Shown here in pieces: positions 33,673 through 41,280 of a DNA stretch of 64,000 nucleotides. The notes under the pieces are model-generated. The model saw nothing but the letters and a program-made list of their open reading frames with translations. It searched no databases and was not told where the DNA came from. Each line of letters begins with the position of its first letter. Position 1 is the first letter of the stretch. The position numbers and the translations under genes were made by a program. Source of the stretch: Pseudobutyrivibrio sp. (lineage in GTDB: Bacteria > Bacillota > Clostridia > Lachnospirales > Lachnospiraceae); the NCBI GenBank assembly GCA_017557435.1, contig JAFYYR010000019.1:24528-88527 (forward strand). The letters run 5' to 3'.

Positions 33673-34542
33673 ATGAATAGAAGAAAAGTTATTGCATTGT
33701 CGCTTACAATGGCATTTTCTGCGGGATTATTACTTACATCTCATACAACAGTAGAGGCCAGAGGTCATAGACATTGCCATCATCGTCATAATACAACTGT
33801 TGAGCAGAATGTTGATGAGCAGACAGATGCATCTTCAGATGAGACAACCGCTTCGATTTTGGAAAAACTCAAGGGATATACAGCATTTGAAGAAGTTACT
33901 AATGTGGATGATCAGCAATTCTTATTGCTAGTTGAGACCAAGACTGGTGGTATTAACTTATACCAGGAAAAAGATATAATCGAGACAGAAAAGATTGATG
34001 CCAAGGAATTAGCTGATGGTGACACATATTATGATACTAGAATCAAAAATCCTGAAGATATGGAATTGATTTATTCTTCTGATGGAAACGAAGATATCAG
34101 CGCGGTTCACATGGGCGGTGAGTTTGGTGCTTTCCAGTGTGTAGGTGATAGATTAAAGGATGCTAGATATGAGGGGCTTTCTTTTGATGAGTCTATTACT
34201 CAGGGACCTGAGCTCGACCAGAATAAGCAGTATGTAAACTTCTTATATACTGATTTCATCAATGGTGCCTTAAGAGGAAACATAGAAAGCACAACTTCTG
34301 CAACTGAAGTATTCTATGAGACAGGCGATATGTTCCAGGGCGGTGGATATGACTACTATGCAGAGTACGGTGAAAATGATGGTACTGATGCTGAGTATAC
34401 ACTTGTTTATGACATTGTAATCAACGATGATAAGACTATCAATTTTACAATTGGAGCATATAACGAAGAGAATGATTTTGCAGCTGATGTAACATATCAT
34501 TTGATAGCTGAGGATGGAGGAGCGTATTCTGTCCTTAACTAA
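33673..34542 (+). CDS. Secreted protein of unknown function with a histidine-rich N-terminus
   Basis: A 289-residue protein with a Sec signal peptide (residues 1-29; cleavage probably after VEA). A short His-rich stretch follows (RGHRHCHHRHN), which could bind metal, then an acidic Glu/Asp/Thr linker and a globular domain of about 220 residues rich in Asp, Glu, Tyr and predicted beta strand. No family recognised. A TATAAT box at 33626-33631 and AAAGAGAGG before the ATG support expression. Confidence 0.75.
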   Translation: MNRRKVIALSLTMAFSAGLLLTSHTTVEARGHRHCHHRHNTTVEQNVDEQTDASSDETTASILEKLKGYTAFEEVTNVDDQQFLLLVETKTGGINLYQEKDIIETEKIDAKELADGDTYYDTRIKNPEDMELIYSSDGNEDISAVHMGGEFGAFQCVGDRLKDARYEGLSFDESITQGPELDQNKQYVNFLYTDFINGALRGNIESTTSATEVFYETGDMFQGGGYDYYAEYGENDGTDAEYTLVYDIVINDDKTINFTIGAYNEENDFAADVTYHLIAEDGGAYSVLN

Positions 34543-34582
34543 GCACTAAAGTTTAACATATCTAAAAAAGCATATAAAAAGT

Positions 34583-34612
34583 AAGAGCTACGTCTTTTGA
34601 CGTAGCTCTTTT
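34583..34612. terminator. Bidirectional terminator before the encapsulin operon end
   Basis: AAGAGCTACGTC, TTTT loop, GACGTAGCTCTT: a perfect 12-bp stem with T-rich flanks on both strands. It ends the secreted-protein gene and the minus-strand encapsulin operon. Confidence 0.9.
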
Positions 34613-34624
34613 ATTTGCAATATA

Positions 34625-34652
34625 TTTTGGACCACTAACCCCGTCCCCTAGG
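34625..34652. repeat. 28-bp repeat, copy 1 (left of the encapsulin operon)
   Basis: A TTTTGGACCACTAACCCCG core continuing to CCTAGG. It matches the copy at 40385-40412 in 27 of 28 positions. GGAC and GTCC inside it can pair. Confidence 0.9.
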
Positions 34653-34662
34653 ACCATTTTTG

Positions 34663-35622
34663 CTAGATTATGTAGTACCATTCATCGCTTTGAACAACTT
34701 CTTCTGTTTTTAGCTCATTGTTGTTGGTACGGTATTCCATTTCTAGGTTCTTCATGCTGACAACAGTGTTTGCCCCAATTGATCTAGTAATAAATGTGTT
34801 GCCGCCTATTACGGTGTTTTCACCGATAATAGTATCTCCGCCTAGAATAGAAGCACCTGCGTAGATTGTTACGTTGTCGCAGATGGTAGGGTGTCTCTTT
34901 TTGCCCGAAAGCTTCTGGCCACCTCTTGTGGAGAGGGCACCGATTGTGACGCCCTGATATACCTTGACATTTTTACCAATCACAGCAGTCTCACCGATAA
35001 CGATTCCTGTTCCATGGTCAATGAAAAAGAACTTGTCGATGGTAGCTCCTGGATGAATATCTATACCTGTCTGGGAATGGGCATATTCTGTCATCAAACG
35101 AGGTAGAACGGGAACCTGAAGCTTGTATAGCTCATGGGCAATTCTGTAGACTGTAGTCGCAAATAGACCTGGATAGGCCAGGATGATTTCCTCAAAACAG
35201 CCTGCAGCAGGATCTCCGTCGAAAGCAGCTAAGACATCAGTCTCAATATATTCTCTGATTTTAGGAACCTGACTGAAGAATTCCTTACAGATTCGATAGC
35301 TTTCCTCAGCACGACTTTCCTCAGTAAGAGTGCCTCGTTTTTTACAGAAATCAAGAGCAAGTGTAACCTGCTTATTAAGGTGATAAAAGATATCCTCAAT
35401 TGTAATTGCAAAACTATTATTGGGATTGTATATCTTGTAAGTGCGGTCTCTAAAGTATCCTGGATATATAATCCTCAACAAATTTTCTACCAAAATCGTG
35501 ACCTCGGCCTTGTCAGGCTTGTTGAAGATATTAACTGCGTCGATAGTTTTATCTCCATTAAAGTCTGAAATGACTGTATCAACAATATTTTCGATTTCAG
35601 CTTCTACTATAATCCCGTTCAT
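34663..35622 (-). CDS. Serine O-acetyltransferase (EpsC/CysE type)
   Basis: A 319-residue enzyme that makes O-acetylserine from serine and acetyl-CoA, the acceptor for sulfide in cysteine synthesis. The N-terminal ~190 residues are helical; the C-terminal part is a left-handed beta helix of hexapeptide repeats starting at IDIHPGATI, with the catalytic His-Gly in FIDHGTGIVIGE and the TRGGQKLSGKKRHP loop. This long form is the one found in family 2A encapsulin operons. Last gene of the operon, 14 nt after the cysteine desulfurase stop. Confidence 0.93.
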   Translation of the reverse strand: MNGIIVEAEIENIVDTVISDFNGDKTIDAVNIFNKPDKAEVTILVENLLRIIYPGYFRDRTYKIYNPNNSFAITIEDIFYHLNKQVTLALDFCKKRGTLTEESRAEESYRICKEFFSQVPKIREYIETDVLAAFDGDPAAGCFEEIILAYPGLFATTVYRIAHELYKLQVPVLPRLMTEYAHSQTGIDIHPGATIDKFFFIDHGTGIVIGETAVIGKNVKVYQGVTIGALSTRGGQKLSGKKRHPTICDNVTIYAGASILGGDTIIGENTVIGGNTFITRSIGANTVVSMKNLEMEYRTNNNELKTEEVVQSDEWYYII

Positions 35623-35636
35623 GTTAACCTCACTTG

Positions 35637-37358
35637 TTATGCAAATGTTTTAAGTGCTTTAACCAGTGCATCAATATCGTCTGGCGAATTATAAATCGCA
35701 AGAGTAGGTCTGACTACACTTTCATAACCAAAGTGTCTCAAAACTGGCTGAGCACAGTGGTGTCCAGTTCTAACAGCGATGCCGTAAGCGTCAAGGCGTT
35801 TTCCAACTTCCTCATCTGAATATCCATCCAGCTTGAAAGCTAGGGCAGAAGCCTTGTTTAAAGCTGTACCAACTAGGGTAATGCCTTTTACAGACTTCAT
35901 TTCTTTGAGGGCATACTGAAGTAATTCATGCTCCCATCTAAATACGCATGGCATGCCGATTTCTGAAAGGTATTGAAGAGCTGCGCCTAAGCCAACAGCA
36001 TCCGCGATACTTCCTGTTCCCGCTTCAAATTTGTTTGGAATAGCATTGTATATAGTACGTTCAAAAGTAACGTCAGCAATCATATTTCCGCCGCCGTGAT
36101 AAGGTCTTGCACTTTCAAGGAGTTCTTTTTTACCATATACTACGCCGATTCCTGTTGGAGCAAAAATCTTGTGGCCTGAGAATACAAAAAAGTCAGTATC
36201 TAAGGCTGTAACATTTACAGGAATGTGAGCTATAGACTGAGCGCCGTCCACAAGGATTCTAACACCGTGACGGTGAGCGATAGCTACAAGTTCCTCAACA
36301 GGAGTAACAGTTCCAAGTACGTTAGAAACGTGGGTAACTGATACGAATTTTGTTCTCTTAGTAAACAGTTTTTCATATTCATGCAAAATCAGCTGGCCTG
36401 TTTCATCACAAGGAATTACCTTGATTACAGCACCTGTTTCCTGGGCAATAAGCTGCCAAGGAACGATGTTAGCATGATGCTCTAGGATAGAGACGATAAT
36501 CTCATCACCAGGCTCTAAGGTAGGCTTAACATAGGCATTGGCAACTAAGTTGATAGCCTCTGTTGTACCTCTTACAAATACAATCTCTTCGGAGCTTGAT
36601 GCGCCAATGAAATCGCGAACGATATTTCTGGCATTTTCATAAGCGTCAGTAGAGCGTGCAGCCAAAGTGTGGGCGCCTCTATGAACATTAGAATTCTCAT
36701 GCTCATAGTAATAAGACAGTCTGTCAATTACTGCCTTTGGTCGCTGTGTTGTTGCACCGTTATCAAGCCAAACTAGAGGATTTCCATTAACCTTTTCAGA
36801 AAGAATAGGGAAATCGCTTCTAATCTGTGCAAGTGTTTTTGAGCCAATTCGAATAGACTCATCTCTAGATGAGTAAGGCAACTCAATATTGCTCTGGCTT
36901 GTGACTCTATCCCCGCCAAGTGATGTAGGTGCATCGATTTTTCTCTCATTTTCCTGAGCCTGTGTCTTAGACAAAACTACAGGAGAGTATGAAACTGATG
37001 CTGGCTGCTCATTTGGCAAATCCTTTTCATCAGGTAAAAATTCAGAGTATGGATTTTCCGCAATTTGAACAGAGTTTAGCCAAGGCTCAGAAGAGGCTCC
37101 ACCGTAAGCAAAAGGATGCTCCCAGTCAAACTCTGTAGAACCGTAGTTAATATTGTCACCCTGTGGAATGCTGCTTACAACTTCACTGCCAGAGGCTGCA
37201 TTTGTTATAGCATCTGGAGTATCAAGTGTTGATGGTACAGCAGGAACAGCTGCAGTTGCTGCAGTTGTGTCTCCAACTAAGTCTGGAAATAGCTCATTAG
37301 CTAAAAGGGTAAGCTCCTTAGCGCTGGGAATTCCAGCCAAATTCTCAATCGTAGTCAT
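35637..37358 (-). CDS. SufS-type cysteine desulfurase with N-terminal encapsulin-targeting extension
   Basis: A 573-residue PLP enzyme that removes sulfur from cysteine. Residues ~170-573 are a complete SufS-type domain: FPILSEKVNGNPLVWLDNGATT, EHHANIVPW, the PLP lysine in FSGHKIFAPTG, and the catalytic cysteine in RTGHHCAQP. The first ~165 residues are Ala/Ser/Thr/Pro-rich and predicted disordered, with a helical start. Such extensions direct cysteine desulfurase cargo into family 2A encapsulins (established for the family). The ATG at 37358 follows AGGTGA; a GTG at 37367 lies inside that site. The gene overlaps the encapsulin stop by 14 bp. Confidence 0.95.
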   Translation of the reverse strand: MTTIENLAGIPSAKELTLLANELFPDLVGDTTAATAAVPAVPSTLDTPDAITNAASGSEVVSSIPQGDNINYGSTEFDWEHPFAYGGASSEPWLNSVQIAENPYSEFLPDEKDLPNEQPASVSYSPVVLSKTQAQENERKIDAPTSLGGDRVTSQSNIELPYSSRDESIRIGSKTLAQIRSDFPILSEKVNGNPLVWLDNGATTQRPKAVIDRLSYYYEHENSNVHRGAHTLAARSTDAYENARNIVRDFIGASSSEEIVFVRGTTEAINLVANAYVKPTLEPGDEIIVSILEHHANIVPWQLIAQETGAVIKVIPCDETGQLILHEYEKLFTKRTKFVSVTHVSNVLGTVTPVEELVAIAHRHGVRILVDGAQSIAHIPVNVTALDTDFFVFSGHKIFAPTGIGVVYGKKELLESARPYHGGGNMIADVTFERTIYNAIPNKFEAGTGSIADAVGLGAALQYLSEIGMPCVFRWEHELLQYALKEMKSVKGITLVGTALNKASALAFKLDGYSDEEVGKRLDAYGIAVRTGHHCAQPVLRHFGYESVVRPTLAIYNSPDDIDALVKALKTFA

Positions 37359-38304
37359 AGTACTCACCTACCTCTACATCCTCTAAAACAGCAATAGCAT
37401 CATCAGCTAAAATTGCAGCAGAGCAGTATAGAGAGAGAAGATAAGAAGCAACTCCTTTATCATCAATTCCTCTAAATCTTACAGAAAGACCTCTTGAGTG
37501 CTCGTTCTTTAAACCAGCCTGGAAGAGGCCGATTACACCGCGCTTTGCCTCGCCAGTTCTAAGAAGCAAGATATTTGTCTTTCCACCTTCAGACTGTGGA
37601 TTCTTTAATCCGTCTACAAGCAACTTGTCTGTAGGAATGATAGGGATTCCTCTCCAAGCTAAGAAAGTGCCCCCTGCAATGTTAACAGTAACAGGTGGAA
37701 CGCCTCTCTTTGTACACTCTCTCTCGAATGCAGCGATTGCACGAGGGTGAGCTAAGAAGAATGAAGGCTCTTTCCAAACCTTTGTGATGAGTTCATCTAA
37801 ATCGTCTGGTGTAGGTGCGCCATTTCTTGTCTGGATTCTCTGTGAATCAGGGACGTTCTTGAGAAGACCATAGTCATCGTTGTTGATGAGCTGGCTTTCC
37901 TGTCTCTCACGAAGTGACTCGATTGCAAGTCCAAGCTGTTCCTGAACCTGATCGTAAGGAGCGCTGTAAACATCCTCGATTGCAGTGTTGACATTGATGA
38001 TTGTAGAAATTGAGTTGAGTCTGTACTCTCTTGGCTCAGTCTCATACTCTACATATCCATCAGGGATGATGTCAGACTTCTTAGTCTGGCTGCAGAGTAC
38101 ATCGAGAGGAGTCTCGCCCTCTACGACCTTGTTTACTCTAAAGATACCAGTCTCAAGTCCCTTGAACTCAAGAAGCTTTGTGAGCCACTTTGGTGTGAGT
38201 GCACCGTACTGTGGCTTTGTTTTGGTGACATTGGCAAGGTTATATGCAGCCTGTGCGCCAAGTGCATTAATGCCTTCCTTTGTCTCAACATTTTCCTTTG
38301 ACAT
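37345..38304 (-). CDS. Family 2A encapsulin shell protein (SrpI-like)
   Basis: A 319-residue HK97-fold protein that self-assembles into a protein nanocompartment. Family 2A features are clear: the N-terminal arm (ALGAQAAYNLANVTKTKPQ), RLNSISTIINVNTAIEDVYS, FFLAHPRAIAAFERECTKRG, and the C-terminal GLFQAGLKNEHSRGLSVRF and YLLSLYCSAAILADDA that match SrpI-type shells. There is no cyclic-nucleotide-binding insertion, so it is 2A and not 2B. The ATG follows AAAGGAGG. The cargo desulfurase is encoded immediately downstream with overlap, fixing their ratio. Confidence 0.95.
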   Translation of the reverse strand: MSKENVETKEGINALGAQAAYNLANVTKTKPQYGALTPKWLTKLLEFKGLETGIFRVNKVVEGETPLDVLCSQTKKSDIIPDGYVEYETEPREYRLNSISTIINVNTAIEDVYSAPYDQVQEQLGLAIESLRERQESQLINNDDYGLLKNVPDSQRIQTRNGAPTPDDLDELITKVWKEPSFFLAHPRAIAAFERECTKRGVPPVTVNIAGGTFLAWRGIPIIPTDKLLVDGLKNPQSEGGKTNILLLRTGEAKRGVIGLFQAGLKNEHSRGLSVRFRGIDDKGVASYLLSLYCSAAILADDAIAVLEDVEVGEYYDYD

Positions 38305-38362
38305 TTTGTTATCCTCCTTTGATTATTCTGCATATATAAAGTCTATTGACTATATGCCATTT

Positions 38363-39820
38363 CTACAGCCATGCGCCTTCGTGAGAGAACATGATATCTT
38401 TAAGTGAATCAATGCCGCCTTTTAGGTTGTACATTGGCCCGTCGTAGCCTGCCTCTCGTAGTGTGTTAATGGCCAAAATACTGCGTTTGCCTTCCTTGCA
38501 TAAGAAGACAGTTGGAATTTCAGGGTTAAGCTCACCCTTTCTGCGAGCAAGCTGTCCGATTGGAATAACCACCGCATTTGGGAATCGAAGTATTGCTCGC
38601 TCATGAGGCTCTCTTACATCTACGATGGTAAGAGGCTCGGCGTTTTCTATTTTCTCCGCAAATTCTTCTGCGGTGAAACCTTCTACAGGAATCTCTTCCT
38701 CAGCTTCTTTTAAGCCGCAGAAATCGTCATAGTCAAAATTTTCCACCTTGATAATTGATGGATTCTCCCCGCAAATAGGGCACTTGTGATTCTTGTTAAC
38801 AGTGAGAATGTTGGAGCGCAAGTAAAGGCTATCCACTGTTAAAAGCTTGCCTGATAGGTTCTCACCGATGCCGATAATTAGCTTAAGTGCTTCATTGGCC
38901 TGGATGCTTCCTACGATTCCTGGAAGTGGGCTAATGGCGCCGCCCTCAGAGCATGTAGGAACAAGTCCTGCTGGTGGTGGAGCTGGAAAAACACATCTGT
39001 AGCATGGTCCACCATTTAAATTGAATATGCCAATCTGGCCCTCGTACTGGTAAATAGCGCCGAATACCAGTGGAATGCCAATAAGTGCGCAGGCATCATT
39101 TATCAAATATCTAGCCTTGTAATTATCAGTACAATCGATTACAAGGTCGTAACCGTCAATTATTTCTACTACATTGTCCGCATCAAGCTTTACATTTTCT
39201 GGCTCGAAGACAATTGTTTTATTAATGTTTTTAACCTTATCTCTGGCAGATGCCACCTTTGGTCGCTTCAAATCTCTAGAAGAGTGGAGTACCTGATTCT
39301 GTAGATTGTCTAGAGCAACCACATCGAAATCCACTACCTTGATAGTGCCTACACCTGCGGCAGCAAGGTACTGAATAACAGGAGAGCCTAAAGCTCCTGC
39401 ACCGATAACCACAACCTTTGCAGCCTTGATTCTCTTTTGTCCCTTAACACCGATATCTCTAAGCATCAGGTGCTTGCCGAAACGCTCTACCTCAGAATCG
39501 TCAAACGAAACTGCTTTGGCACGCTCATCGGAAATGATGCTATTTTTAGGGCTTCCGCCGGCAATGGCTGGAAGCAAATAAACATCCCGGCCAGGGATTA
39601 AAGCATCGCTCCATGTAGACTCCTCTGATTTATTTATGTCCCCTACATATATTTGAATAAAGCTGCGCAGATGCTTATCCTCATCAAAAAGAATCTCTTT
39701 TGAATCAGGATATTCATCTGTAAGCCAGTCTAGAATTCCCCGGATATTTTCTGCTGGAATATCAAATTTATGATTTTTTCCAAAGAACCCCCTTAAGGTT
39801 GCTGATATATATACGTTCAT
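38363..39820 (-). CDS. Fusion: ubiquitin-like sulfur carrier (MoaD/ThiS) - E1-like adenylyltransferase (MoeB/ThiF) - rhodanese
   Basis: A 485-residue three-part protein. Residues 1-90 are a MoaD/ThiS-like beta-grasp domain ending in an internal Gly88-Gly89 (AIAGGS). Residues ~105-360 are an E1-like domain: ATP loop GAGALGS (140-146), VIDCTDNYKARYL, zinc pairs CYRC (273-276) and CPIC (347-350), and Cys290 in TCSEGG. Residues ~380-485 are a rhodanese domain with active-site loop CKEGKRS (Cys441). It would adenylate a carrier C-terminus and load it with sulfur as a thiocarboxylate. The di-glycine is not at a free C-terminus, so the carrier must act in trans, or be released, for example by the JAMM protein encoded 11 nt upstream. 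Confidence 0.93.
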   Translation of the reverse strand: MNVYISATLRGFFGKNHKFDIPAENIRGILDWLTDEYPDSKEILFDEDKHLRSFIQIYVGDINKSEESTWSDALIPGRDVYLLPAIAGGSPKNSIISDERAKAVSFDDSEVERFGKHLMLRDIGVKGQKRIKAAKVVVIGAGALGSPVIQYLAAAGVGTIKVVDFDVVALDNLQNQVLHSSRDLKRPKVASARDKVKNINKTIVFEPENVKLDADNVVEIIDGYDLVIDCTDNYKARYLINDACALIGIPLVFGAIYQYEGQIGIFNLNGGPCYRCVFPAPPPAGLVPTCSEGGAISPLPGIVGSIQANEALKLIIGIGENLSGKLLTVDSLYLRSNILTVNKNHKCPICGENPSIIKVENFDYDDFCGLKEAEEEIPVEGFTAEEFAEKIENAEPLTIVDVREPHERAILRFPNAVVIPIGQLARRKGELNPEIPTVFLCKEGKRSILAINTLREAGYDGPMYNLKGGIDSLKDIMFSHEGAWL

Positions 39821-39831
39821 TTCTCCACTCC

Positions 39832-40239
39832 TTATTTCACGTCTAATTCAAGTTCCTCTATGCCCTCCCAGACATTTTGTCTGAAAAATACCTTTACCTG
39901 GTTGGTGCCTTTCCTATCTACGGAGGCGATACAGTAGTTAAGCTTGGGAATCATGTATATTTCATCCTCCTCAGATAAAATGGCAGCTGCATCAGGATGA
40001 GAGTGGAAGAATCCAATAACGTCCAGATGGTGATGCTGGGCCCATTTTTCTATCATGAGAAAATCCAATGAGTCGATCCTAAAACTGTCAGTTTCTCCTA
40101 GCAAATTTGGCAGGTTACATACTTCATACACTTGATTTAAGTCACTGTTGCCAAGCAATACGCCGCAGGCCTCCTTGGGATATTCGGCCTCGGATATGGA
40201 TGTCAACTTAAAGAATGCTTCTTTATTTATCTGCAACAT
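39832..40239 (-). CDS. JAMM/MPN+ metallopeptidase (Mec+/M67-like)
   Basis: A 135-residue zinc isopeptidase of the JAMM class. The full motif is present: Glu23 (PKEACGVLLG) and HSHP with His79, His81, Ser89 and Asp92. In Mycobacterium the homologue Mec+ frees cysteine from the carrier CysO; other members trim ThiS/MoaD-like precursors after Gly-Gly. It is the first gene of the encapsulin operon, behind GGGGAGG, directly before the carrier-E1-rhodanese fusion, so the carrier is its likely substrate. Confidence 0.93.
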   Translation of the reverse strand: MLQINKEAFFKLTSISEAEYPKEACGVLLGNSDLNQVYEVCNLPNLLGETDSFRIDSLDFLMIEKWAQHHHLDVIGFFHSHPDAAAILSEEDEIYMIPKLNYCIASVDRKGTNQVKVFFRQNVWEGIEELELDVK

Positions 40240-40265
40240 AAACCACCTCCCCGAATTAATATTGA

Positions 40266-40318
40266 CTACTAAACCAGTAGGTTAGTAGGATAATAACAAA
40301 AACCACCATATTTCACAA
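40266..40318 (-). promoter_or_regulatory. Promoter and operator of the encapsulin operon
   Basis: On the minus strand TTGTGA (40313-40318), 17 bp, TATTAT (40290-40295). Directly downstream, across the expected start site, CTACTAA (40266-40272) and TTAGTAG (40282-40288) form a perfect inverted repeat with a 9-bp spacer. The regulator is unknown; a CymR/Rrf2-type cysteine regulator is one possibility only. Confidence 0.65.
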
Positions 40319-40384
40319 TATGTCTAGTTCCACAGAAATCCTATAGCTAACTATCAAATTAATTGATAACAGATAATAGTTCAT

Positions 40385-40412
40385 TTTTGGACCACTAACC
40401 CCGTCCTCTAGG
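40385..40412. repeat. 28-bp repeat, copy 2 (right of the encapsulin operon)
   Basis: Same sequence and orientation as 34625-34652 with one difference (T for C at 40407). It lies between the encapsulin promoter and proC, so the two copies bracket the whole operon. Confidence 0.9.
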
Positions 40413-40485
40413 TTCACAAAGAAGTCTTAAAATGGTACACTAATTATGTTGTTTTTTAGGCTAGTTTTTATGTGGAGGAAATGAA

Positions 40486-41280
40486 ATGAAAATCGGTTTT
40501 ATCGGAACTGGAAATATGGGTAGTGCAATGATGGGCGGAATGGTTTCGTCAGGAATCGTGGATGCTTCTAATGTTATGGCTAGCGATATTTTTCAGGCTG
40601 CACTTGATAGGATTAGCGACGAGTTAAATATTGCAACAAGCACTAATAATCGTGATGTTGTTGATTTTGCAGATATTGTATTCTTGGCTGTTAAGCCTCA
40701 GTACCTTGCAGGCGCTATTGATGGTATCAAGGATATGGATTTTTCAAATAAGATTGTTGTCAGCATTGCAGCAGGTCAGTCAATTGAGAAGCTTACAGAG
40801 CTTTTTGGCAAGGAGCTTAAGCTCATCCGTGTTATGCCTAACACACCAGCACTTGTTGGTGAGGCTATGAGCGCACTTAGCCCTAACGAGCTTGTTTCTG
40901 AGGATGAGGCAGCTATCGTTCTTCATTTATTTGAATCATTTGGTAAGGCCGAGATCGTTCCTGAGAAATTACAGGATGCTGTAGTTGGTATCAGCGGTTC
41001 ATCTCCAGCTTATGTATATATGTTTATTGAGGCTCTTGCTGATGGAGCAGTTGCAGAGGGCATGCCACGTGCACAGGCTTACAAGTTCGCAGCCCAGGCA
41101 GTGCTTGGCTCAGCTAAGATGGTTCTCGAGACAGGGGAGCACCCTGGTGTGCTTAAGGATGCTGTCTGCTCACCAGGTGGCACTACAATCGAGGCCGTAG
41201 CTACACTTGAGGCTCTCGGATTTAGAAATGCAGTTATTGAAGCAGAGAGAGTGTGTGTCGAGAAGTCTAGAGAGTTGTAG
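40486..41280 (+). CDS. proC: Pyrroline-5-carboxylate reductase
   Basis: A 264-residue NAD(P)H-dependent enzyme, last step of proline synthesis. The N-terminal Rossmann loop is IGFIGTGNMGSAMMGG; RVMPNTPALVG and the C-terminal signature region DAVCSPGGTTIEAVATLE are typical. The ATG follows GGAGGAA. Monocistronic, ending at a strong terminator. Confidence 0.96.
   Translation: MKIGFIGTGNMGSAMMGGMVSSGIVDASNVMASDIFQAALDRISDELNIATSTNNRDVVDFADIVFLAVKPQYLAGAIDGIKDMDFSNKIVVSIAAGQSIEKLTELFGKELKLIRVMPNTPALVGEAMSALSPNELVSEDEAAIVLHLFESFGKAEIVPEKLQDAVVGISGSSPAYVYMFIEALADGAVAEGMPRAQAYKFAAQAVLGSAKMVLETGEHPGVLKDAVCSPGGTTIEAVATLEALGFRNAVIEAERVCVEKSREL

Follow-up and report, generated by a model that had tools for sequence, protein, structure and literature searches.

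Desulfurase shells of the family 2A encapsulins with serine acetyltransferase (SAT) and rhodanese accessories (PMC8346489), operons of ubiquitin-like sulfur relays (PMC1779556) and cysteine synthesis of the CysO type (PMC3227635) are known separately. What appears to be new in the locus described here is the stable union of a desulfurase shell with a CysO-type relay. The locus lies in a 64,000-nucleotide stretch of DNA from Pseudobutyrivibrio sp., a rumen-type bacterium (contig JAFYYR010000019.1; hereafter the window), in which an earlier note, made from the sequence alone, had described five same-strand genes. Intact open reading frames (ORFs) and family matches bear this description out: all five ORFs lie on the minus strand where that note had placed them (Table 1), and are transcribed in the order JAMM protease, carrier–E1–rhodanese fusion, family 2A shell, desulfurase and SAT-like gene, with intergenic gaps of 11, 58, −23 and 14 bp. 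We think it probable that this cassette encodes a desulfurase encapsulin equipped with a ubiquitin-like sulfur-carrier relay of its own, through which banked sulfur would be rebuilt into cysteine. For a different shell of family 2A, a 2024 paper reportedly found sulfur stored in elemental form.

We compared the cassette with the systems that it most resembles. The family 2A SrpI/CyD locus of S. elongatus pANL (order cysK-epsC-srpI-cyd-rhodanese; shell 54.8% identical to that of the window) likewise combines a shell, an N-terminally extended desulfurase cargo, SAT and a rhodanese, and also includes cysK; unlike in the window's cassette, no carrier, E1 or JAMM was seen in it. With the mycobacterial CysO/CysM/Mec+/MoeZR pathway (PMC3227635) the cassette shares a carrier of the CysO fold, an E1-rhodanese and a JAMM protein, and its relatives contain a CysM-like synthase. 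In contrast to that pathway, the carrier here is fused to the E1 or, in relatives, capped before it, the E1 has CxxC motifs, and the relay comes together with a desulfurase in its shell operon; furthermore, the presence of SAT suggests O-acetylserine as the acceptor, rather than the O-phosphoserine of the CysO pathway. The relay gene set itself is that of operon classes 4b and 4c of a 2006 survey, E1-rhodanese and JAB with cysteine synthase (PMC1779556). Encapsulin, desulfurase and SAT are not named for these two classes in the text available, and the terms 'desulfurase', 'SrpI' and 'serine acetyl' are absent from its main text. A literature search gave no paper joining encapsulin with MoaD, and broader searches gave none on encapsulins among the matches listed; ThiF, JAMM, JAB, MoeB, ubiquitin and sulfur carrier are absent from the main texts of PMC8346489 and PMC8049743 (an earlier mention elsewhere is possible).

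The linkage of the cassette is strongly conserved, beyond chance. Lack of such linkage had been set beforehand as a result that would refute the proposal, and the fusion and the shell were found to co-occur perfectly in 29 Pseudobutyrivibrio genomes (the window's genome counted in): 11 have the shell, and exactly those 11 have a fusion match of at least 57% identity (the fusion of G024 and the shell of G026 are each split over two contigs). The 18 shell-less genomes gave E1-only or rhodanese-only matches at 43% at most, or, for G001, no match. The named relative with the closest shell among the matches listed, Pseudobutyrivibrio xylanivorans MZ8 (98% identical), carries the cassette. As can be seen from full 18-kb neighbourhoods of eight other congeners, the window's flanking genes are shared by one only (L018), and in L017, L020, L022 and L023 the cassette is placed after CysN and other sulfate-assimilation genes; the cassette is therefore kept together while its address changes.

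To the closest shell relatives (the best 80 of 563 confirmed, a sample that leans to close relatives) we added more distant shells from an order sample, a phylum sample and plasmid records (eight taken of 32). The shell family occurs in 20 of 392 genomes of the order-wide sample, and the family 2A model matched in 7 of 398 of the phylum sample. Most relatives are metagenome-assembled genomes (MAGs), whose contigs are incomplete and whose names are only as good as the binning. Neighbourhoods were scored at 105 shell loci after removal of duplicates (L030, L031, L116 and L128); loci with identical shells from separate records (L079/L137 and L020/L021/L022) were retained. Where at least 1.6 kb upstream was available, the E1-rhodanese stood directly upstream of 57/57 shells at 85% identity or more, of 30/36 at 70–85%, and of 0/2 at lower identity. 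In a tree of 117 shells, 92 of the 100 scorable members of one clade (100% support in the Shimodaira–Hasegawa-like approximate likelihood ratio test) have the E1 relay, and none of the 11 scorable shells outside it does; the tree was quick, had no bootstrap and implied 6 state changes, and support was weak for 35 of its 110 inner branches. An Aliarcobacter locus with an interrupted E1-rhodanese region was counted as relay-positive. Upstream sequence of 4 kb or more was available for 69 E1-rhodanese loci, 62 of which have JAMM there; of the E1-rhodanese loci with 3.5 kb or more downstream, the desulfurase was found in 64/64 and SAT, on either side, in 50/64. Over 64 loci, shell distances followed those of the E1 (Mantel r 0.69) and the desulfurase (0.91), and JAMM distances those of the E1 (0.71). 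Family 2A loci outside the clade showed no carrier, E1 or JAMM in the neighbourhood scan; they have SAT and rhodanese where these were found, and cysK as well in S. elongatus pANL.

By record labels, the clade mixes Bacillota, Fibrobacterota, Planctomycetota, Spirochaetota, Synergistota, Pseudomonadota, Lentisphaerota, Desulfovibrio and others. The order JAMM, carrier–E1–rhodanese, shell, desulfurase, SAT recurs, with losses, in Lachnospiraceae, Fibrobacter, Planctomycetes, Spirochaetes, Synergistaceae, Desulfovibrio, Enterobacter and others (again by label). This intermingling suggests that the block has been transferred between lineages, with MAG binning errors as a caveat. On an Aliarcobacter cibarius plasmid (L142:3001-13515) the cassette has a cysteine synthase upstream and cysK downstream, and insertion sequences separate JAMM from the carrier and the E1 part from the rhodanese part. 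In Enterobacter sp. 10-1 (L109:5072-11410) SAT-like and CysM-like genes lie upstream of the cassette; the DNA of this shell had no match among E. coli genomes. A search with the fusion against plasmids returned 358 records, only two of which cover at least 80% of the query (34.8% and 33.9% identity).

We analysed the products of the shell, desulfurase and SAT-like genes. With an above-cut-off match to the family 2A model and no cyclic nucleotide-monophosphate (cNMP) domain, the shell belongs to family 2A; PF19307 is its sole Pfam match and hits no other gene of the genome, and the family 2B model scores 380 bits, below its cut-off of 400. The adjoining SufS-type desulfurase contains both the SGHK and the RTGHHCAQ motif, and its N-terminal extension has the features of a loading domain, with two caveats: the cargo model NF041166 scores 775 bits, just short of the 800 cut-off, and the strict pattern of the loading motif, known as LARLANEFFS from family 2A cargo (PMC8049743), fits just 42 of 107 complete desulfurases. 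The last gene had been called an EpsC-type serine acetyltransferase. Its homology to this family holds, and the firmer assignment does not: it scores 160 bits with TIGR01172 (cut-off 211) and 147 with the EpsC model NF041874 (cut-off 150). Since both cysE/EpsC models stay under their cut-offs, we name it only 'SAT-like'.

Table 1. Features of the cassette and its surroundings, in positions of the window
Feature	Position	Strand	Evidence and remarks
Terminator-like stem-loop 3′ of the SAT-like gene	34583..34610	-	12-pair stem; consensus match only
Serine O-acetyltransferase-like protein, 319 aa	34663..35622	-	TIGR01172 5.6e-47, NF041874 5.5e-43
SufS-type cysteine desulfurase, 576 aa, GTG start, ~175-aa N-terminal extension	35637..37367	-	TIGR01979 543 bits (cut-off 475)
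Cargo-loading-like motif LTLLANELF in the desulfurase extension	37287..37313	-	resembles LARLANEFFS
Family 2A encapsulin shell protein, 319 aa	37345..38304	-	NF041162 491 bits (cut-off 380); PDB 8t6r, SrpI 6x8m
Carrier–E1–rhodanese fusion, 485 aa	38363..39820	-	PF00899 (ThiF) 2e-74, PF00581 5e-12; top PDB folds Uba4, then MoeB
Rhodanese domain, residues 383-473, Cys441	38402..38674	-	PF00581 5e-12
E1 (ThiF/MoeB) domain, residues 116-348	38777..39475	-	Cys290; CxxC motifs starting at 273 and 347
Gly88-Gly89/Ser90 junction, predicted JAMM cut site	39551..39559	-	Gly-Gly kept in relatives; low pLDDT
CysO/MoaD-like carrier domain, residues 1-89	39554..39820	-	model pLDDT (predicted local distance difference test) 92.7; top PDB match CysO 3dwg_C, E 5.9e-6
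JAMM/desampylase-like metalloprotease, 135 aa	39832..40239	-	PF14464 8.8e-17; E23, H79, H81, S89, D92
Promoter-like site 5′ of JAMM	40290..40318	-	TTGTGA-17-TATTAT, TG preceding second hexamer; consensus match only

By sequence, the carrier domain of the fusion is weakly recognized (SAMP1, E 9e-7, and MoaD, E 1e-5, both below cut-off). Its structural model ranks CysO (3dwg_C) first in the PDB, followed by SAMP1, a Thermus MoaD-related protein and a BexX/CysO complex, with CysO again at rank 6, molybdopterin-synthase MoaD chains from rank 20 and ThiS at rank 32. The analogy to CysO and Mec+ drawn in the earlier note is thus upheld by the closest fold. The E1 cysteine, the zinc site and the rhodanese cysteine are all present in the fusion, and among cassette E1-rhodaneses they are conserved in 86/87, 85–87/87 and 87/87, respectively. 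That the operon holds the parts for thiocarboxylate chemistry, as had been proposed, agrees with this near-invariance of the carrier and E1 residues that such chemistry would need. In one Clostridia MAG (L078:7500-9945) carrier, E1, rhodanese and shell share a single reading frame, which would fuse the rhodanese to the shell N-terminus. One in-frame stop interrupts the carrier, and the arrangement may be genuine or an assembly error.

The carrier is a beta-grasp domain with Gly-Gly, but as encoded it has no free C-terminal Gly-Gly: the pair is internal to the fusion and would have to be exposed by cleavage. As an E1 adenylates the C-terminal carboxylate of its carrier, the internal Gly-Gly is not chargeable before such a cut, and the protease of the operon is therefore most likely the maturase too. 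Indeed, comparison of the sequences makes it very probable that carrier maturation is a further task of JAMM, one overlooked in the first interpretation. The JAMM protein has the motif E...HxHx7SxxD of this family (HSHPDAAAILSEED), and an alignment of 73 cassette JAMMs shows no variation at either His, at the Ser or at the Asp; the Glu is present in 72, with a gap in the remaining one. The internal Gly-Gly is retained in 65 of 67 fusions of relatives. Free carriers of relatives (a set that includes the long-tailed L097 and L104) have at least one residue beyond Gly-Gly in 21 of 22 cases, one (L094) ending exactly there; fused or capped carriers thus make up 86 of the 87 that keep Gly-Gly. At residues 86–91 of the fusion, pLDDT falls below 50 in the AlphaFold model, consistent with a flexible carrier/E1 junction. 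Elsewhere in the window's genome, the carrier of a thiamine-type cluster (named by eye; a 3.2-kb locus without JAMM) ends in GGG, and a JAMM-adjacent carrier on another contig, C11, in GGGR.

We searched nine whole genomes for PF14464: seven whose loci have at least 4 kb upstream and an E1, with no same-strand upstream JAMM (L039, L064, L066, L069, L088, L099 and L105), and two whose contig shows little or nothing upstream (L074 and L070). Each of the seven genomes whose fusion keeps Gly-Gly has a JAMM match elsewhere, in L099 only as fragments on short stretches. The planctomycete MAGs of L069 and L070, whose fusions read Gly-Glu instead, were the sole two with no PF14464 match genome-wide, with MAG incompleteness as a caveat. 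In both, the E1 cysteine is also replaced and the rhodanese cysteine kept; since the two are sister rows on the tree, we count this joint loss as one event. A Cys-rich linker joins carrier and E1 in both (L069:7141-8778, L070:3-1562).

Release of a carrier from a fusion has precedents. MoaX is cleaved between Gly82 and Ser83, a step it requires (PMC4326299), and DRJAMM cleaves the MoaD-MoaE of D. radiodurans (PMC8832034); as in the cassette (Gly89/Ser90), the carrier is freed at Gly-Gly, in MoaX likewise at a Gly/Ser bond, but in those proteins the fusion partner is MoaE and here it is the activating enzyme itself. Capped carriers typically depend on a protease such as QbsD (PMC6006322), and cleavage of carrier fusions by JAB was envisaged generally in 2006 (PMC1779556).

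The earlier note had left the final transfer step unassigned, with no cysK or cysM in the window. This stands for the window's own cassette, but not generally, as candidates lie directly upstream in relatives. Among 93 relay loci, 19 lacked upstream room and 74 were scored for the gene immediately before the relay, which was a cysteine synthase in 23, MetY-type in 16, CysN in 5, TusA-like in 4, SAT in 3, sulfite-reductase-like in 1, and other or none in 22; four of these last (L097, L106, L110 and L142) have a cysteine synthase overlapping or nearby. Either enzyme, cysteine synthase or MetY-type, occurs anywhere in the fetched locus in 59/74. The labels CysN, CysD, AprA, sulfite reductase and TusA were given by eye, and those of cysteine synthase and MetY were checked by NCBIfam for some members: four cassette cysteine synthases gave cysM as the best model (339–351 bits, below the 394 cut-off), and the one MetY-type neighbour tested, of L044, scored 412 bits with TIGR01326 (cut-off 495). 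Where the relay was not scored as fused and at least 4 kb lay upstream, 15 of 16 loci have a cysteine synthase (L078 is a broken fusion). Of the relay-less shells inside the clade, L087 and L107 keep the upstream cysteine synthase, as though free sulfide were able to stand in for the carrier; the remaining six have none in the fetched stretch.

A second relay is encoded on contig C11 of the window's genome (L119:17640-19700, L120), with a carrier ending GGGR, an E1 without rhodanese, JAMM, and thioredoxin-like and TusA-like proteins, followed by sulfite reductase-like, MetY-like, CysN/CysD-like and AprA-like genes (labels by eye). A thiocarboxylate pathway to methionine, HcyS/HcyD/HcyF-MetY of Wolinella, is cited in PMC5764234. 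It reportedly combines a capped carrier, JAMM, E1 and MetY. The C11 set is similar to it and to the class 4e sulfate-assimilation operons, and differs from the shell cassette in being a separate unit, in which the E1 lacks a rhodanese and a TusA-like protein is present instead.

From the gene order, the conserved residues, the co-occurrence and the one co-loss, which were observed directly, we infer every biochemical step of the following scheme. As in its homologues, the desulfurase would be loaded into the shell via its N-terminal extension and convert cysteine to alanine and sulfane sulfur. JAMM would cut the precursor after Gly89, a step with strong comparative support, to give a free CysO-like carrier ending in Gly-Gly. 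To judge from the conserved residues, the E1 would adenylate this carrier and the rhodanese would pass sulfane sulfur to it from the desulfurase or the shell, forming a thiocarboxylate. A pyridoxal phosphate (PLP) enzyme, CysM-like or MetY-like in relatives, would then move the carrier sulfur onto O-acetylserine (from SAT) or O-acetylhomoserine; in the window's organism this is probably the chromosomal CysK or the O-acetylhomoserine/O-acetylserine (OAH/OAS) sulfhydrylase. JAMM may hydrolyse the carrier–cysteine adduct too, as Mec+ does. The net effect would be a store of sulfane sulfur that is later turned back into cysteine. To fill this store, the combined reactions of SAT, sulfhydrylase and desulfurase would amount to Ser + H2S -> Ala + S(0) + H2O, at the expense of acetyl-CoA, and serine could be the electron acceptor for an oxygen-free, redox-balanced sulfide oxidation.

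Several observations weigh against this scheme. The window's own cassette has no cysteine synthase; the genome's CysK and OAH/OAS sulfhydrylase, both above cut-off, lie on C11, and in 15 of the 74 relay loci neither a cysteine synthase nor MetY is found in the fetched stretch. A PDB comparison of one cassette cysteine synthase gave O-acetylserine sulfhydrylase B (OASS-B)/cysteine synthase B entries (2jc3, 2bht) as the nearest, and chains of 3dwg, the CysO-complex entry, are absent among the 60 PDB matches listed for it. CxxC motifs are assigned to MoeB/MoeBR and are mostly missing in MoeZ/MoeZR, and it is MoeZR that charges CysO (PMC3227635); the window's E1, having both MoeBR-type motifs, is not of the MoeZR type, which weakens a strict CysO identity. 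The E1 is lacking from 8 of the 100 scorable relay-clade members, and JAMM distances do not follow shell distances (Mantel r 0.14, inside 1000 permutations, 64 loci). With a second carrier–E1–JAMM set in the genome, JAMM function could be shared. Furthermore, if cysteine is broken and made from one operon, a futile cycle follows unless the two are regulated or separated in time. The direction of flux is the weak point of the mechanism, and storage in this shell is itself putative.

It is possible to read the same genes in other ways. The relay might take persulfide directly from the encapsulated desulfurase as a general thiocarboxylate supply, the shell only stabilizing or insulating the enzyme and banking no elemental sulfur. 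Encapsulation alone lifts desulfurase activity about sevenfold in S. elongatus (PMC8049743), and storage in the cassette's own shell is putative; we nevertheless hold this explanation to be unlikely, because elemental sulfur has reportedly been found inside a different shell of family 2A. SAT in 50/64 relay loci also points to cysteine or homocysteine rather than to a general sink, and a cysteine synthase or MetY-type gene directly upstream in 39/74 points the same way. That JAMM, E1 and carrier are instead a ubiquitin-like conjugation system tagging the shell or cargo is improbable. Predicted conjugation systems do occur among sets of JAMM, E1 and ubiquitin-like proteins, but the E1s of E2-type neighbourhoods never had a rhodanese domain (both PMC1779556), and here the rhodanese is present with its cysteine in 87/87; no E2 family matched among the five window genes (relatives were not searched for E2), and sulfur-acceptor enzymes adjoin the relay.

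The best fold match of the fusion is Uba4, and E1-rhodanese proteins of the MOCS3/Uba4 type serve molybdopterin synthesis and tRNA thiolation. We give very little credence to such a role for this carrier. A part in molybdopterin synthesis is unlikely, as no MoaE match was found in the genome (96.2% complete), and CysO leads the ranking of the carrier model, with molybdopterin-synthase MoaD chains at rank 20 or lower; linkage to SAT and cysteine synthase likewise speaks against such a role of the carrier. Equally hard to credit is an ordinary rhodanese accessory with the E1 and carrier domains as unused passengers. Family 2A operons usually have rhodanese and SAT accessories (PMC8346489), and the two planctomycete MAGs seem to have reached such a state; in general, however, Gly-Gly (65/67 fusions), the E1 cysteine (86/87) and the JAMM active-site residues (72–73/73) are nearly invariant, which indicates purifying selection on the carrier chemistry.

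Upstream of JAMM, about 49 nt 5′ of its start and just downstream of the promoter-like site, lies a palindrome, CTACTAA-N9-TTAGTAG (window 40266-40288), which is a possible operator. It is present in the window and L018, and was not found before JAMM at the other loci scanned. Promoter-like sites in the region number 18, against 12.4 expected in shuffles. A search for riboswitches or leader RNAs at 34400-41000 gave three matches, every one far under the gathering score. A 289-aa ORF convergent with the operon (window 33673-34542) has no Pfam or NCBIfam match and is conserved in L018.

Returning to the desulfurase encapsulin with its own carrier relay, the cassette may, as a tentative extension, be a mobile and self-contained anaerobic sulfur bank, in which sulfide would pass through cysteine into stored S(0), with serine as the acceptor, and withdrawal would be gated by JAMM freeing the E1-fused carrier. 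The cassette offers a clear example of a ubiquitin-like carrier that is produced joined to its E1; carrier tail, E1 cysteine and protease have been lost together once in nature, so that a maturase role of JAMM is open to direct testing. It also names candidate parts for the exit of sulfur from a desulfurase compartment, kept with the shell across many lineages.

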